Shown: piece after piece, positions 53,975-62,323 of the stretch
Layout: every line of letters starts with the position of its first letter
Numbering within the stretch: the first letter of the stretch is position 1
IMG/VR virus record: IMGVR_UViG_3300044701_000569
Span: 62,001-126,000 of that record
Length of the DNA stretch: 64,000 bases
Strand: one strand, 5' to 3'
Source of the DNA: a virus
Program-made: the position numbers and the translations under genes
Notes under the pieces: model-generated
What the model saw: the letters and a program-made list of their open reading frames with translations, nothing else
Databases searched by the model: none
Told to the model about the DNA's origin: nothing

Positions 53975-56900
53975 TTAGAATGACGTAACGTCTCTATTTG
54001 CAACATCTACACCAGTGCCGCGTTTGGTGTTCTTTTCAATCTTATCACTGATTTCTTTCATTTGTTGCAGTAGTTCAACCATTCTCGTCATTGTACCATT
54101 TAATTGTTCTGTATTGCCGGCACCTGTACTTGTATTTACACTAATGTTCTTTAATATGTCCCCAGCATTGGCTTTAGAATCGCCCATACCAAATAACCCG
54201 CCTCTGTTTTCATTAGCTAATTCTTTGTTAAGATCTGCTAGAGTTCTTGTTAAATCTCTCAATGCTGTATTGTAGGATGATAGTTTAGTTGCATCAAGTC
54301 CATTTAGAGCTGTTAGTGTAGTTTGTAGATTTTGAACATTTGCAATTGATTGTAAGCCGGCAGCAGTTTGTTGTAGTCCACCATTACTACCAATAGTTGC
54401 TAGTCTGCCCAAGCTAGCTACTGAATCAGGCGGTATTGAAAGATTAGCAGTGCCTTGGCCACCACCTTTAAAAGCATTTAGTGCATTTCCAAACGCTGCC
54501 ATTGCTTCTGCATTTGCTTTTATTCGCTGTGCGTCAATGCGCAACTCGCCAAACTGTCTCATACTGTCCCATGGCATCTGTTGACTGCCACCAAAGAAAC
54601 TTCTTAACCCTTCAAGTAATCCTCCGCTTCGTGTTCCATCTATTTGCGGAACTTTACTCAAAGCATCACCGAATGCTGCCATTGCTTCAGCATTAGTCTT
54701 AATTTTATCAACTGGTAATGTAAGCTGACCAAATGCAACTGCTTGTGCCCATGGTACTTGTTGAGAACCCATAAAGAAGTTTGCTACAGCACCAATTAAT
54801 CCGCCAGTGCGTTCACCATTCACAGTAGGAATATTACTCATAGCTTCAGCAAATGCTTTTACTGCAAGACTGTTTTGCTGCATCTTAGTAGCATCTAGAT
54901 TGTAAGATTGAAATTCTACCATCTTAGCGTATGGTAATTTTACTTCGCCGCCGAAGAAACCAACTAAACCGTTAACAGCATTAGCAACTAAATTACCTAG
55001 TGCTCCTGTTGCGCCACCAGAACCCATTGATGACATTGCCTTTGAATAAGCTACAACAGCATTTGCATTAGCTTCAACTCTTGCTGCATCAATATTAAGT
55101 TGAGAAAATTCTTGCAGTTTATCAAACGGAGTTTTACCGCCAAACAAACTTGTAATGCCTTCTGCAAGGCCTCCTAGCATTCCGCCAAGACCAGACACAA
55201 CGCTTGAAGCACCCATAGCAGCCATTGCTAAACTGATTGCTCCAATACCTTTACCAACCTGTATTAAATTGTTGCCATCAAGCTCGGCAAATTTCTGCAT
55301 ACCTTCTGCAAAGGTTGGAAGAGCTTTTCCTACTAGCCATGTAGCGCCAGCAATGCCTGCACCTATTACAACTATAGCACCACTTAGTATACCAGCGCCT
55401 ATTAGTATTTGCGGATTAGCAAATGCACCAAGACCCTTAGCTAATCCTTCTAGTATTCCGCCAAGACCTTTGCCGATTCCCTTACCAATTTCACCTACTG
55501 TTTTTCCAAATTCAGCAAAACCTCTAGCAACTCCTGTTAATAGTTTTTGTATTCCAGCACCAACAGATTTTAGTGCTTGACTTGCTGATACTGCTGCGTT
55601 GCCTGCGCCTGCTGCTGCACCACCTGCGGCATTAGCTGCTGCACCACCTGCAATATTTGCGCCTGCTGTTGGGGCGGCTCTAGCACCAAAGCCGCCCATC
55701 ATTTTACTTGCTATATTATCAGTTACTCCGCTCAGACCTCTACCAAGAGCTCCTATTACAGATTTCGCTAGGAACAGAGCACCAATACCTGCTACCATTG
55801 CAGCTACTACAGTACCGTTAGTAAATATTCCTTTAATAGCATCGCCAACTAATCCTAGTACTGCTGGTAAAAATCCGTCTACTTTTACTGATTCAGTAAA
55901 TGCTTTTATAGAGTCTGCCATGCCTGATATTAAGTCAGCGGCCCTGTTTATGCCTATAGCAAATAATTCTATTAATCCACTGTCAATAAAAGCTGTTTGA
56001 ATAGCTGAACTTAGTTTTCTAATTGAATCTTGAAATGTAGTTAATGCTGTAGTAGTTTCGTTTTCTTTCTTTGCTTCTTCCTCAGCTGCGGTAATATTTA
56101 GATTACTTACCTCTAACATAGATCTGTTGTTGTCGATAAGACCTCTTAGTACAGGATCAACTTGCCCTAATGCTCCAAGGAAAGCAGCGTCTCGCGCACC
56201 GCCTTTTGTAAATCGATTTTCTAATGTTTCGCTGGTTCTTCTTAGAGCGTCTTGCAGAATTCTTGGATCAGCACCTTGACCAACCTTCATCATTGCATCT
56301 CTTAATTCAGGACCAGCTTGAGCTAAAAGTTTTTGTGCTGCTTCAGTATTAGCTACGCCGTCGGCTAGATCTTTTAGAGCATCGCCAGTTTCTTTTGGCA
56401 GCTTGTTTATCATATCCATGCTTCTTTGAAAGTTTTGAGCTTGTATACTTCCTTCTTCAAACTGATTTGCCAGTGCTCTAAACGATGCGTCGGCGGCTTG
56501 CGCGGCTCGTTGATCCATTAATTCTTTACGACTCTGGCCTGTTAGTTTAGCCATCATATCAAGTTCTTTAAGATAGCTTGCCGAGCCAGCTGCTAGTTCC
56601 TGTGTACTTTTGCCTTGAAGCCTTCCTAGTCTACTCTGTAATTCAACATAGCTAGCCATACCTTCATTAATTTCTGATATACTAAATCCCATACCTTTGA
56701 GTTGTTCAAAAGTACCTGTATCCTTTAAAGCATTGTTCATAGCGGTAAATCGCTGAACACCTTGAGTAACAGTACCTCCAAATTTAGCAAACGTCTGTGA
56801 GTTATTACGTACCAAGGTTGAAAATTCTTCTAGAGTAAGACCGTTCTGTGCTGCTGCACGACGCATGGCTACGATGTCGTTGTTAAACCCTGCACCTACA

Positions 56901-57349
56901 GAACTTAATTCTCTAAATGCGTCAACAGACTTATCTAAGTACCCTGCCATTGCTCCTAGCAAAGATCCAACAATAGGAACCTGCGAAGCATAAGCTGCCA
57001 TTGAATCTTCACCTGCTAGTAATGAACGAGTCATACCTGCAAGGCTGGCCATTACTTGGCCAACGCCACGCATGGCCAGCGCACCAAAGCCTTTAGCTAA
57101 ATTAGATGCTGCTTCTGTTGTCTTATTAGTAGCTGCGGTTTGTGCTGTAGTAGCTGCGGTTTGTGTTGTAGTAGCTGTTGTTCCTGCTTGTTGAGCTTTG
57201 TTGTACATTTCTTGTACTTTGGAACCAGAACCACGTTGGCCTTTCTGTCCTCCCATTCGTTCAATAGCACGAACTAGAGCCAACAGAGTGGCTTCGCTGG
57301 CTACGCCACTTTCACCACCTACATTACCAATAATTACTTCATCAGCCAA
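53975..57349 (-). CDS. Tape-measure-like tail protein
   Basis: This 1124-residue protein has the features of a tail-length ruler: long helices, Ala/Gly-rich hydrophobic segments (about residues 490-545 and 660-700) and a helical C terminus. It lacks clear similarity to T4 gp29 by eye. Residues about 740-960 hold four repeats spaced about 60 residues apart, each with P-[FYW]-x-x-[ML] followed by F-x-x-x-x-[IL]-x-x-x-[KR]-x-x-x-N and an Ala-rich helix. The start is a TTG at 57349, as no ATG lies within the first 30 codons. It is next to gp26 and the gp51-like gene, matching the rule that assembly chaperones adjoin the ruler gene. Confidence 0.72.
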   Translation of the reverse strand: MADEVIIGNVGGESGVASEATLLALVRAIERMGGQKGQRGSGSKVQEMYNKAQQAGTTATTTQTAATTAQTAATNKTTEAASNLAKGFGALAMRGVGQVMASLAGMTRSLLAGEDSMAAYASQVPIVGSLLGAMAGYLDKSVDAFRELSSVGAGFNNDIVAMRRAAAQNGLTLEEFSTLVRNNSQTFAKFGGTVTQGVQRFTAMNNALKDTGTFEQLKGMGFSISEINEGMASYVELQSRLGRLQGKSTQELAAGSASYLKELDMMAKLTGQSRKELMDQRAAQAADASFRALANQFEEGSIQAQNFQRSMDMINKLPKETGDALKDLADGVANTEAAQKLLAQAGPELRDAMMKVGQGADPRILQDALRRTSETLENRFTKGGARDAAFLGALGQVDPVLRGLIDNNRSMLEVSNLNITAAEEEAKKENETTTALTTFQDSIRKLSSAIQTAFIDSGLIELFAIGINRAADLISGMADSIKAFTESVKVDGFLPAVLGLVGDAIKGIFTNGTVVAAMVAGIGALFLAKSVIGALGRGLSGVTDNIASKMMGGFGARAAPTAGANIAGGAAANAAGGAAAGAGNAAVSASQALKSVGAGIQKLLTGVARGFAEFGKTVGEIGKGIGKGLGGILEGLAKGLGAFANPQILIGAGILSGAIVVIGAGIAGATWLVGKALPTFAEGMQKFAELDGNNLIQVGKGIGAISLAMAAMGASSVVSGLGGMLGGLAEGITSLFGGKTPFDKLQEFSQLNIDAARVEANANAVVAYSKAMSSMGSGGATGALGNLVANAVNGLVGFFGGEVKLPYAKMVEFQSYNLDATKMQQNSLAVKAFAEAMSNIPTVNGERTGGLIGAVANFFMGSQQVPWAQAVAFGQLTLPVDKIKTNAEAMAAFGDALSKVPQIDGTRSGGLLEGLRSFFGGSQQMPWDSMRQFGELRIDAQRIKANAEAMAAFGNALNAFKGGGQGTANLSIPPDSVASLGRLATIGSNGGLQQTAAGLQSIANVQNLQTTLTALNGLDATKLSSYNTALRDLTRTLADLNKELANENRGGLFGMGDSKANAGDILKNISVNTSTGAGNTEQLNGTMTRMVELLQQMKEISDKIEKNTKRGTGVDVANRDVTSF

Positions 57350-57376: not shown

Positions 57377-57384
57377 TATAAATA
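57377..57384 (+). promoter_or_regulatory. Perfect T4 late promoter TATAAATA for gp26
   Basis: This is the only exact match to the T4 late octamer that I saw. It leaves a leader of about 38 bases with CGGAG before the gp26 ATG. Confidence 0.8.
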
Positions 57385-57427: not shown

Positions 57428-58306
57428 ATGGCAGATTTTAACCCGCTAATGGCAGGCAAGCAACAGTCAAACCCACTACAGAAGTATTTTAGACAACCTA
57501 AAGTTTATATTACTTTACCCAGCAAGGGTAAATTTTATAAACCCGGCGCTGTTGATCTTCCGGAGAACGGAGAACTACCAGTCTTTCCTATGACTGCTAA
57601 GGATGAACTAACGCTAAAGACACCCGATGCTTTATTAAATGGACAAGCTACTGTTGATGTAATACAAAGCTGTATTCCTGCTATTAAAGATGCGTGGCAG
57701 ATGCCATCAATTGATCTTGATGCAGCATTAATTGGTATAAGAATTGCTACCTATGGCGATAAATTAGATCTTACAACAAAAATTCCTGGTCTTAATGAAG
57801 AAAGAGAATTTAGTGTTGATTGTAAGACACTGCTTAACAAGTTAGTTACTAAAGAATTTGTTGATACTATTGAATACAACAATATGGTTGTTAAGATACG
57901 TCCATTAAATTATAGAGAATTTACTACTAACAGCATTAAAACTTTTGAAGAACAAAGAATTTTCGCTCTAGTTAATGACGGTAAGATGAGTGAAGAAGAA
58001 AAGTTATCTAAATTTAATGAAAGTTTTAAAAAGCTAACAGAGCTTACTGTAGATACAATGGGTAAAACTATTGTAAGTATAACAGTTGACGATGTTATAG
58101 TAACTGATAGAAATCATATTCAAGAATTTCTAACTAATACAGATAAAAACTTTTATAGTGCAATTTTAGAACACATTGAACAGCAGAAAGAACTGTTTAG
58201 TATTGAACCGCTCAAAGTTGAATGTTCAGACGAAGACGTTGAACGTGGTGCTCCTGAAAGATTTGAAGTTCCTATTACATTTGATCAATCAAATTTTTTC
58301 GGATAA
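57428..58306 (+). CDS. gp26: Baseplate hub protein gp26-like
   Basis: The segments NPLQKYFRQPKVYITLPSKG, LPVFPMTAKDELTLKTPDAL, then SIDLDAALIGIRIATYGDKL are those of the T4 gp26-type baseplate protein family of marine phages. At 292 residues it is longer than T4 gp26 (208). In T4 the order is 26-51-27-28-29, and here a gp51-like ORF follows and the ruler gene is divergent. The last codons contain a slippery heptamer T-TTT-TTC six bases before the stop, so a fraction of ribosomes may continue into the next ORF. Confidence 0.78.
   Translation: MADFNPLMAGKQQSNPLQKYFRQPKVYITLPSKGKFYKPGAVDLPENGELPVFPMTAKDELTLKTPDALLNGQATVDVIQSCIPAIKDAWQMPSIDLDAALIGIRIATYGDKLDLTTKIPGLNEEREFSVDCKTLLNKLVTKEFVDTIEYNNMVVKIRPLNYREFTTNSIKTFEEQRIFALVNDGKMSEEEKLSKFNESFKKLTELTVDTMGKTIVSITVDDVIVTDRNHIQEFLTNTDKNFYSAILEHIEQQKELFSIEPLKVECSDEDVERGAPERFEVPITFDQSNFFG
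58294..58300 (+). other. Candidate -1 frameshift slippery site
   Basis: The heptamer T TTT TTC is in the correct phase of the gp26 frame (…AAT TTT TTC GGA TAA). A -1 slip enters the frame of the 72-residue ORF, which has no stop between the heptamer and that ORF. This would give a gp26-gp51-like fusion. Confidence 0.5.
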
Positions 58307-58311
58307 GGATC

Positions 58312-58530
58312 TTGCCCTGGTCTCTTGACGAGATTCTAGACGAGGTCCGTAATTTTGAAAATCAACAAAAAGAATTAAAGCACGATCTGTTTAAGGTCTG
58401 CTGGTACATGCGCGGCGGCATAACTCTTGAAGAGGCTTACAACTTGTGTGCCGAAGATAAAGAAATTATTGGAAAAATAATTAAGGAAAACCTAAACACT
58501 ACTAAAGAGTCAGGTCTTCCTTTCTTTTAA
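58312..58530 (+). CDS. gp51: Baseplate hub assembly protein gp51-like
   Basis: The 72-residue helical protein has WSLDEILDEVRNFENQQKEL, then CWYMRGGITLEEAYNLCAED and ends SGLPFF. Position after gp26 is that of T4 gene 51, whose product acts catalytically in hub assembly; sequence identity to T4 gp51 is not obvious to me. It has no ATG: the nominal start is a TTG at 58312 only two bases from AAGGA, too close for normal initiation. Expression by -1 frameshifting from gp26 is therefore plausible. It ends four bases inside the convergent 58527 gene. Confidence 0.6.
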   Translation: MPWSLDEILDEVRNFENQQKELKHDLFKVCWYMRGGITLEEAYNLCAEDKEIIGKIIKENLNTTKESGLPFF

Positions 58531-59877: not shown

Positions 59878-60318
59878 TTAAGTGTTGGTATGATTTGCCT
59901 GTTCTAGAAGTGCCTTACGCAATTTATCGGAACCGCCCACTCTACAATTAATAATTCCGTTATAATATTCATCCGTCTCTAACACACGGCGGTCAAATTG
60001 CTCTCTTGCCTCGATATATGACATTTCTGCCTTGGAAGTGCAGTAGTAAAGTATTTCTCTAGTGAAGTTTTCTGGACCTAATTGTGCAACGTCAGCGTTG
60101 AGTCTATCGGATGAACCCCAATAATCACGCCAGTCGCTTTCTACAGTGGAACGCCTTTTGAGTTTTTTGCCTTTTAGCGGAGGTTTTGTACGTTTGAATT
60201 GTGCAAGTTTTTTGCCTATGTACTTTTGTCCAGTTTTTAGATTGGTTATAAGGTAAACAAAGCCTATTTTGCCTTCTGGTATTTGTTCAACGATGTTACC
60301 TTGATAAGTCCACTGCAT
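59878..60318 (-). CDS. GIY-YIG-like endonuclease
   Basis: This 146-residue protein has the GIY-YIG layout: GFVYLITNLKTGQKYIGKK (residues 18-36), a DYWGSS motif at about 66-71, and a Glu/Tyr-rich helix ENFTREILYYCTSKAEMSYI. Similar proteins are common in marine T4-like phages, where the role (repair, DNA processing or homing) is unproven. It is eight bases downstream of the 73-residue gene and belongs to the gp47-gp46 operon. The candidate structured RNA starts directly at its stop. Confidence 0.82.
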   Translation of the reverse strand: MQWTYQGNIVEQIPEGKIGFVYLITNLKTGQKYIGKKLAQFKRTKPPLKGKKLKRRSTVESDWRDYWGSSDRLNADVAQLGPENFTREILYYCTSKAEMSYIEAREQFDRRVLETDEYYNGIINCRVGGSDKLRKALLEQANHTNT

Positions 60319-60548: not shown

Positions 60549-62323
60549 TAGTCTACGTAGTCAATGTCATTGGCGTAACTGGTAAAGCCGTTTTCCTTAA
60601 TAACCTTAAGGACATTGTTAACTCTTCCAATTAATTCATCCTTGTGGCTGATTAGATAGATATTCTTTTGACGTTCTCTACCCATTTTCTTAAGGACACC
60701 TAGTGAATTTTCAACTCCCGCAGTATCCATACCACTGTCAATTAGCTCATCAATGAATAGTAAGTTGATATTTTGATATAAACTTTCCCATACATCACGG
60801 AATGCAAAGCTGAGACCTAAAATAAGTCTATTTCGTTCACCGCGGCTTAGGTTATCAAAGTCTAGGTCCTGTCCTAGCTGTGTGATTTCAACATTTAGGT
60901 CGTTTAAGAACACAACTTGATGTGGAAGTCCTAGTTTGTCTAGATAGTACGTTAGTCTATTGTTTAGATAGGCTAGATTTTGATCAATAATCTTCTTGCG
61001 GATAAAGCTATCCTTGTTAGTCAGTAGTTTTAACAAGAACTCTTGATGTTCCCTGTAAGAAGTTAGATCGTTAACAGTTCCCCAAGTTATTTCTTGGATA
61101 GCAGTCTTGTTTAACTCGTCAATCTGCGCCTGATAAGGATCGTCTTCGTTAAGTTTTTGTTCAAGTGCCTTCTTAAGATTCTCAACATTGTTGCGATGAT
61201 CGTAGGCTTCCTTAGCAGTTTCATAGAAAGTGTTTGGCTTGCCGTTGATATTTCCTATTTGAGCAAGAGCCATTACAGTATCGCTCAACTTTGTGCTAAC
61301 TTCCTGATAGTAAGTATCTGCATCACGCAGTTCCTTGCTCTTTTTAGCTAGAATTTCCTGCTTCTTGTCAGCATGCAAGGGCTGATTACATGCATAGCAA
61401 ACAGCTTCTTCTAAATCTTCAATGTCTTTTTCGACCTTTTTAACAGTCTTTTCTGCTTGCAGTAGAGCACTGTCCAATGTGCTTTTTTCTTTATTAAGAG
61501 CCGTAATTTGCTTGTTAAGTTCCGACCAATTAGCCAGCTTTTCGTGATTTTCAAGCTCTTGATCAATGTCAAGTTGCTCTAATTCTTGTATAGCTTGCTG
61601 TAATTTTGCCGCATCTTGTGCTGTTTTTGACTGCCAAGCCTTCTGTGTAGACTTTAAACTTTCAATAGTTGTCTGTATTTTAGCATTAGCTGCTTGCAGA
61701 GCATTGATTTTCAGTGTCTCTTCTGTGATTGCATCTTTGGTTAGTTTTACTTGTTCTTTTAGAGACTCTGCCTTCTCAGAAAGTATAGTAATACCTAACA
61801 GTTGCTCAATAATAGCTCTTTGATCGTTCTGCTTCATAGCTAGGAACGGTTCAGTATAGGTGTTTAGTGCAAGGATATGTTTAAACATATCATGGCTCAT
61901 GCCTAACAGTGTGTCAATAGTGTTCTGCGTATCTCTACTGTCACCTTGGCTTTCGTCTGTGAGTTCTTGTTCTTCGTCGTTTATATAAAATTTAAGAAGA
62001 TTAGGAGAGCGTCCGCGCTCAATCCTATAATCAACACCACTTTTTTCAAAGTGCAGTGTAACTAACATGCCTTTGTTGTTGGTTTTGTTAATTAAGTTAT
62101 TCTTCTTAATGTTAGTTAATGCTTGGCCGTACAGTGCATAACTGAGTGCATTAATAATAGTAGTTTTGCCTGTACCGTTACGAGAACCAGTATCGTCACC
62201 TCCTTGATCTAAGTTTTCGCCAAGCACTAGAGTTAGCTGTTCCTTGTTAAAGTTAACAGCTTGAGTTTGGTTGCCCACACTCATAAAGTTTTTTACAGTA
62301 AGATCTTTAATTTTTATTGTCAT
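60548..62323 (-). CDS. gp46: Recombination endonuclease subunit gp46 (Rad50/SbcC-like)
   Basis: This is the ATPase partner of gp47, which resects DNA ends for recombination-dependent replication. Walker A is SRNGTGKTT (residues 47-55), the zinc-hook Cys pair is CYAC at about 308-311 between long coiled coils, the ABC signature is LSRGERNRL at about 491, and Walker B is LLFIDE at about 524. The 591-residue length compares with 560 in T4. It overlaps gp47 and the next gene by single bases (TAATG), forming a coupled operon. Confidence 0.96.
   Translation of the reverse strand: MTIKIKDLTVKNFMSVGNQTQAVNFNKEQLTLVLGENLDQGGDDTGSRNGTGKTTIINALSYALYGQALTNIKKNNLINKTNNKGMLVTLHFEKSGVDYRIERGRSPNLLKFYINDEEQELTDESQGDSRDTQNTIDTLLGMSHDMFKHILALNTYTEPFLAMKQNDQRAIIEQLLGITILSEKAESLKEQVKLTKDAITEETLKINALQAANAKIQTTIESLKSTQKAWQSKTAQDAAKLQQAIQELEQLDIDQELENHEKLANWSELNKQITALNKEKSTLDSALLQAEKTVKKVEKDIEDLEEAVCYACNQPLHADKKQEILAKKSKELRDADTYYQEVSTKLSDTVMALAQIGNINGKPNTFYETAKEAYDHRNNVENLKKALEQKLNEDDPYQAQIDELNKTAIQEITWGTVNDLTSYREHQEFLLKLLTNKDSFIRKKIIDQNLAYLNNRLTYYLDKLGLPHQVVFLNDLNVEITQLGQDLDFDNLSRGERNRLILGLSFAFRDVWESLYQNINLLFIDELIDSGMDTAGVENSLGVLKKMGRERQKNIYLISHKDELIGRVNNVLKVIKENGFTSYANDIDYVD

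Follow-up and report, generated by a model that had tools for sequence, protein, structure and literature searches.

Introduction

Frameshifting of the lambda G/GT type was described in an earlier review as widely conserved except in T4 (PMC5009743). As cited in two further papers (PMC12846349; PMC10885494), Vladimirov, Gautam and Davidson (2022; Virology 566:9-15) proposed that frameshifting also takes place in some T4-like phages and that T4 itself has its short and long forms as a pair of separate genes. According to PMC10885494, which refers to that study, some T4-like phages have one short tail assembly chaperone (TAC) gene together with one fused long gene and do not use frameshifting, and PMC12846349 mentions poly-T slippery sequences in the TAC-N genes of T4-like phages.

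The window analysed here is a stretch of 64,000 nucleotides (positions 62,001 to 126,000 of the IMG/VR record IMGVR_UViG_3300044701_000569), and it belongs to a jumbo phage with a T4-type portal and a record of 357,559 bp. A sequence-only reading of this window had placed relatives of T4 gp26 and gp51 in the lambda G/GT scheme; the present analysis supports this placement, which for T4-like proteins had already been published, as far as the papers citing Vladimirov et al. (2022) report it. Since the mechanism is already known, judging from those citations, what is added here is its extension to jumbo phages, with a near-invariant signal and an RNA stem. The probable tail assembly chaperone gene, with its two predicted forms, is pinpointed in a large set of jumbo phages, in whose records the second half appears as a hypothetical protein, truncated, or unannotated (RaK2, PA5oct), and the locus lends itself to the study of a natural -1 frameshift signal that is cleanly conserved.

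Results

The slippery site and the neighbouring genes

The 3' end of the gp26-like gene reads AAT TTT TTC GGA TAA (58292-58306) and holds an in-phase T-TTT-TTC heptamer, as the sequence-only reading had described. The features of the locus, in coordinates of the window, are the following.

53975-57349, - strand: divergent neighbour of 1124 aa, probable tape measure protein (from features of its relatives and the RaK2 annotation)
57377-57384, + strand: T4-type late promoter motif TATAAATA, the sole + strand copy in the window
57428-58306, + strand: gp26-like gene, putative short tail assembly chaperone (TAC-N), 292 aa (PF12322, phrog_150)
58294-58300, + strand: slippery heptamer T TTT TTC, in phase, kept in 79/79 jumbo-type and 78/78 cyanophage contigs
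58300-58530, + strand: -1-frame extension (putative TAC-C domain), coding according to pN/pS, reading CGG ATA AGG ATC ... TAA (58528-58530)
58304-58306, + strand: zero-frame stop TAA of the gp26-like gene, one codon past the heptamer
58306-58337, + strand: candidate stimulatory stem-loop with arms at about 58306-58314 and 58329-58337, starting 5-6 nt past the heptamer

The window has 46 plausible genes with 20,102 codons in all, and among them TTTTTTC occurs in phase a single time, at 58294; in-phase heptamers of the general form X XXY YYZ number 87. No Shine-Dalgarno-like stimulator was found 5' of the heptamer in the window.

Profile searches matched the gp26-like protein to PF12322 (T4_baseplate; 1.5e-07, 31.8 bits, cut-off 24.5) and to phrog_150 (baseplate hub; 1.4e-12), and its membership in the T4 gp26 family is based on these two matches. 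In the whole-genome profile search the gene scored 31.4 bits against PF12322 and was the only copy of this family in the 357,559-bp record; in the window phage, a lone PF12322 gene is thus continued by an extension in the -1 frame. The proteins of the window had no match among the Pfam TAC families, and profile comparison of the jumbo gp26 and T4 gp51 alignments gave no match. The predicted gp26 fold had a pLDDT of 84.9 and that of a T4-type gp51 a pLDDT of 85.3, the C-terminal tail of the latter being helical. A Foldseek search of the PDB returned no meaningful fold match, which is not taken as evidence, and a BFVD search with the model of the gp26-like protein (57428-58303) gave gp26-family proteins as best matches. 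This fold was also matched by uncharacterised proteins of ~500-700 aa in the phiKZ-like phages Erwinia Special G, Ralstonia RSF1 and RP12, and phiEaH2, and these proteins could be unrecognised tail chaperones of that group.

The divergent 1124-aa product is a probable tape measure protein. It had no profile match in the Pfam and PHROG searches; its N-terminal part is conserved, hydrophobic segments are present, the open frames of its relatives span about 740-1210 aa, and its RaK2 counterpart carries an annotation of similarity to a tape measure protein. The late promoter motif falls in the divergent gap between this gene and the gp26-like gene. Elsewhere in the window, an ORF beginning MQWTYQGNIVEQIPEGKIGFVYLITNLKTGQKYIGKK (59878-60318, - strand) resembles by eye a putative GIY-YIG-type nuclease.

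Conservation of the heptamer and of the register

All sequences of a first set of relatives carry T TTT TTC in register with the -1 ORF. Eleven cultured jumbo phages belong to this set (Atu_ph07, Phosso, PA5oct, PBECO4, Vibrio 2.275.O, RaK2, GAP32, XaC1, Munch, SCTP-2, and Kaldavass), the gp26 identity of the cultured jumbo relatives being 26-35%. Several gp26 genes of this set run 3-11 codons beyond the heptamer, with the FF junction of the -1 product unmoved. A second scan, which shares a few contigs with the first set, revealed T TTT TTC G in all 79 testable jumbo-type loci, with register and extension kept, and the heptamer was present in all 78 testable cyanophage contigs. It was also found in phi-Grn1, 6E35-1b, Desulfovibrio 7757, S-N03, and ACG-2014j, which comprise two Schizotequatrovirus-type (KVP40-like) Vibrio phages, one Desulfovibrio phage and two further Synechococcus phages, while a Rhizobium phage has the variant T TTT TTG. 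The conservation of heptamer and frame in relatives, which had been put forward as a check of the proposal, extends to every jumbo-type and cyanophage locus that could be tested and to all the cultured jumbo phages examined. The contrary case named beforehand, an ATG start with no heptamer, did not occur among the close and jumbo relatives; only the Ackermannviridae-like phages combine a missing heptamer with a small downstream ORF.

Given the amino acids, local codon use leads to an expectation of about 0.1 per lineage for the pattern scored, that is, a T-ending codon followed by TTT and TTC (the TTTTTTG lineage was scored on the T-ending codon and TTT alone). The joint chance of the pattern was ~10^-34 over 34 representative lineages and ~10^-19 over the 19 deepest lineages, figures that overstate the case because the lineages are treated as independent despite their shared ancestry.

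With its six consecutive T, the site could in principle also make RNA polymerase slip, and the mixed mRNA would then yield the fusion protein. Productive polymerase slippage, however, usually needs about nine or more T, and in the representatives listed the run has exactly six, since the preceding codon never carries T in its second position. The covarying stem downstream, described below, also suits ribosomes better than polymerase. Slippage during transcription is accordingly considered very improbable, and slippage of the ribosome is the reading retained.

Coding capacity of the -1 frame

The -1 frame is open from 58285, after a TGA at 58282, to its stop at 58528-58530 (81 codons). The -1-frame extension comprises 78 codons, and the fusion product would have 367 aa, with the junction N-F-F-R-I-R. 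No ATG or GTG is located near the start of this frame; the sole early start is a TTG at 58312, from which the ORF measures 72 codons, and its best Shine-Dalgarno-like match is TAAG (4 bases), which is poorly spaced at 4 nt. The earlier description of an ORF that is open past the heptamer (58285-58530), lacks an ATG and has a badly spaced TTG was thus accurate.

Pfam and PHROG profile searches gave no family match for the downstream ORF, and the -1-frame domain of the window had no match to phrog_634 (baseplate hub assembly catalyst). In a tblastn search, the ORF was found in Atu_ph07 and Phosso, where it overlaps the end of gp26 in the -1 frame. In the public annotation this ORF is missing in RaK2 and PA5oct and has 41 codons including the stop in Atu_ph07, and none of the jumbo records examined carries a frameshift annotation.

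In the -1 frame, pN was lower than pS in all 2,847 pairs of jumbo sequences, and the median pN/pS was 0.41, compared to 0.96 and 1.38 in the other two frames. The -1 frame is under purifying selection and is coding. Homopolymers are error prone, and the two reading frames could also have been separated by a sequencing or assembly error at the T run, or by a frameshift mutation in a decayed gene; the same break nevertheless recurs in cultured phage genomes and in contigs that were assembled separately, well over 150 of them, and selection acts past the junction. Error and decay are already refuted by these observations and retain practically no probability.

Alternatively, ribosomes that terminate on gp26 might reinitiate at its stop or close by and translate the downstream ORF as a small gene of its own, with the heptamer being incidental. 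In several relatives an ATG does overlap the stop (ATGA) or stand at -1 codon 4-9, so that separate translation is possible in those phages; in cyanophages the counterpart is entered as gene 51, separate and starting with an ATG, and a small ORF without the heptamer is kept in Ackermannviridae-like phages. However, no plausible start exists in the window or in 26 of 67 distinct jumbo sequences (~40%), the latter having no ATG, GTG or TTG within the first 20 -1 codons from the heptamer. Start positions vary among relatives, whereas the heptamer and the FFR junction are constant, and the stretch from the heptamer to any possible start has conserved residues (FFR, then R/K and L/I). In addition, Shine-Dalgarno matches are poor, and T4 gp51 bears the same tail fused in frame. 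A separately initiated gene is for these reasons improbable, and a programmed -1 frameshift is preferred.

The downstream stem-loop

In many lineages no local structure is stronger than a stem located 5-6 nt past the heptamer, and several lineages show no such stem. The stem ranked in the top 5% of windows of its own gene region in 14 of 34 lineages, and the 5' arm becomes more strongly paired from an offset of 6-7; the local folding energy over the 34 lineages gave a Fisher p of 9e-13 with relatedness ignored. The stem of the window phage itself is weak (rank p 0.19). Among 74 jumbo sequences, the candidate stem was paired in 72.5% of cells, compared to 32-48% when the stem was slid, and none of 500 shuffles reached its covariation score. 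In smaller alignments (the first 10 jumbo and 21 cyanophage sequences) covariation was merely suggestive, and the 74 sequences were needed. The arms are unrelated between groups: GGATCT...AGATCC is one example, and the others are TCCTAGTATC...GATATTAGGA in PA5oct, AGTATGGCTC...GAGTCATACT in cyanophages, and AATGATGCAC...GTGCATCATT in S-N03.

The gp26 genes of cyanophages mostly carry a GGAGGG-like stretch about 10-15 nt 5' of the heptamer. This spacing would suit an internal Shine-Dalgarno stimulator, for which the stretch is a candidate, and it overlaps conserved Glu-Gly codons.

Relation to T4 genes 26 and 51

PF12322 covers T4 gp26 and residues 1-201 of T4 gp51, a protein of 249 aa, and the two T4 genes are divergent. 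The published proposal for T4-like phages is said to name genes 26 and 51. The downstream ORF of the window had been called gp51-like: as a full gp51 it is ruled out, given the length of T4 gp51, its gp26-like domain and its divergence from gene 26, and what stands of the designation is at most a counterpart of the gp51 C-terminal tail, with weak sequence homology.

Homology to this tail is clear in cyanophages. The cyanophage -1 peptide aligned with this tail, as found in gp51 of the T4 type, at 97.3% (E 2.6e-11), in an alignment that begins at the junction F and spans residues upstream of the annotated cyanophage ATG. In P-SSM2, the ORF called "gp51" has 57 aa; like T4 gp51, it matches phrog_634 as well as the C-terminal end of phrog_150, and the cyanophage -1-frame counterpart matched phrog_634 at 5.7e-28. 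In profile-profile comparison, the jumbo -1-frame domain gave a weak match to the gp51 tail (68%, E 4.7e-05, over 35 columns) with merged larger alignments only, and a 14-sequence alignment of the jumbo C-terminal domain scored 1.3% and 2.4%, respectively, against the cyanophage and T4 gp51 profiles.

In the sampled genomes, T4 and KP15 contain two PF12322 genes, and each heptamer phage with a match contains one; SCTP-2 had no PF12322 match at threshold. The heptamer is absent from the end of gene 26 in T4 and its relatives, and gene 26 of KP15 ends without T TTT TTC. The Ackermannviridae-like phages K476 and 207E48.1 (Vibrio) and phiA8-29 (Aeromonas) have no heptamer and keep a small -1-frame ORF, and the second PF12322 copy is absent in K476 and phiA8-29. 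These phages represent a third state, with one copy, no heptamer and a small separate ORF. From the copy numbers, the absence of the heptamer in T4 and KP15 and the homology of the cyanophage peptide to the gp51 tail, gp26 seems to be the short form, and gp51 the long form, fixed as a gene of its own through a duplication. The assignment of the locus to chaperones of the lambda G/GT type is likewise suggested by the one- or two-copy pattern of PF12322 and by the in-frame gp51 fusion that is homologous to the cyanophage -1 peptide.

Discussion

The comparative evidence for a programmed -1 frameshift at this locus is very strong. The original proposal is supported by the invariant heptamer, the selection on the -1 frame, the conserved residues ahead of any start, the covarying stem and the in-frame version in gp51. 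It is very probable that one gene gives rise to two tail assembly chaperones, a short form and a -1-frameshifted long form. Most ribosomes would stop at the TAA at 58304 and yield the 292-aa short form (gp26, comparable to lambda gpG), while a minority would slip by one base into the -1 frame at T TTT TTC, with the stem-loop 5-6 nt downstream probably helping, and read on to 58530. The resulting 367-aa long form, comparable to lambda gpGT, would end in a C-terminal domain encoded by the -1 frame (about 77 aa). In analogy to lambda, the tape measure protein, which is probably the divergent product of 1124 aa, would be coated by the short and the long form, and tail tube subunits would be recruited by the C-terminal domain. 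From the sequences and from this analogy we infer that frameshifting takes place in the cell, with an efficiency that leaves the short form predominant, and that both proteins exist; the tail assembly chaperone role is proposed on the same grounds.

On balance, we lean toward T TTT TTC placed 5-6 nt before a stem-loop being the ancestral route to the long chaperone across T4-plus-jumbo myophages. The signal would have stayed nearly constant through a protein divergence of more than 70%, and would have been lost in Tevenvirinae and Slopekvirus when the gene was duplicated into 26 and 51; the jumbo C-terminal domain, distinct and longer, is perhaps adapted to the tails of these phages.

In comparison with lambda gpG/gpGT (Levin 1993; Xu 2004; PMC5009743), the locus shares a short ORF, a -1 slip near its 3' end, a C-terminal extension and an adjoining probable tape measure gene. 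It differs in that no sequence homology was detected, the heptamer is T TTT TTC, and the tape-measure-like gene is divergent, whereas in lambda it lies downstream on the same strand. The TACs of Vandenendeviridae and Andersonviridae (PMC12846349) likewise shift into the -1 frame on a poly-T motif where TAC-N ends, but the motif is GTTTTT and the phage families are others. There is also a likeness to the T4-like TACs of Vladimirov et al. (2022), as described by the papers citing them, with a gp26-family short form and a long form with an added C-terminal domain; T4 and KP15 match here the pair of a short gene and a fused long gene described for some T4-like phages. Unlike the T4-like TACs in those descriptions, the jumbo set, which comprises the 357-kb window phage and the relatives of RaK2, GAP32, 121Q/PBECO4, PA5oct, and Atu_ph07, has a longer, divergent C-terminal domain and a covarying stem.
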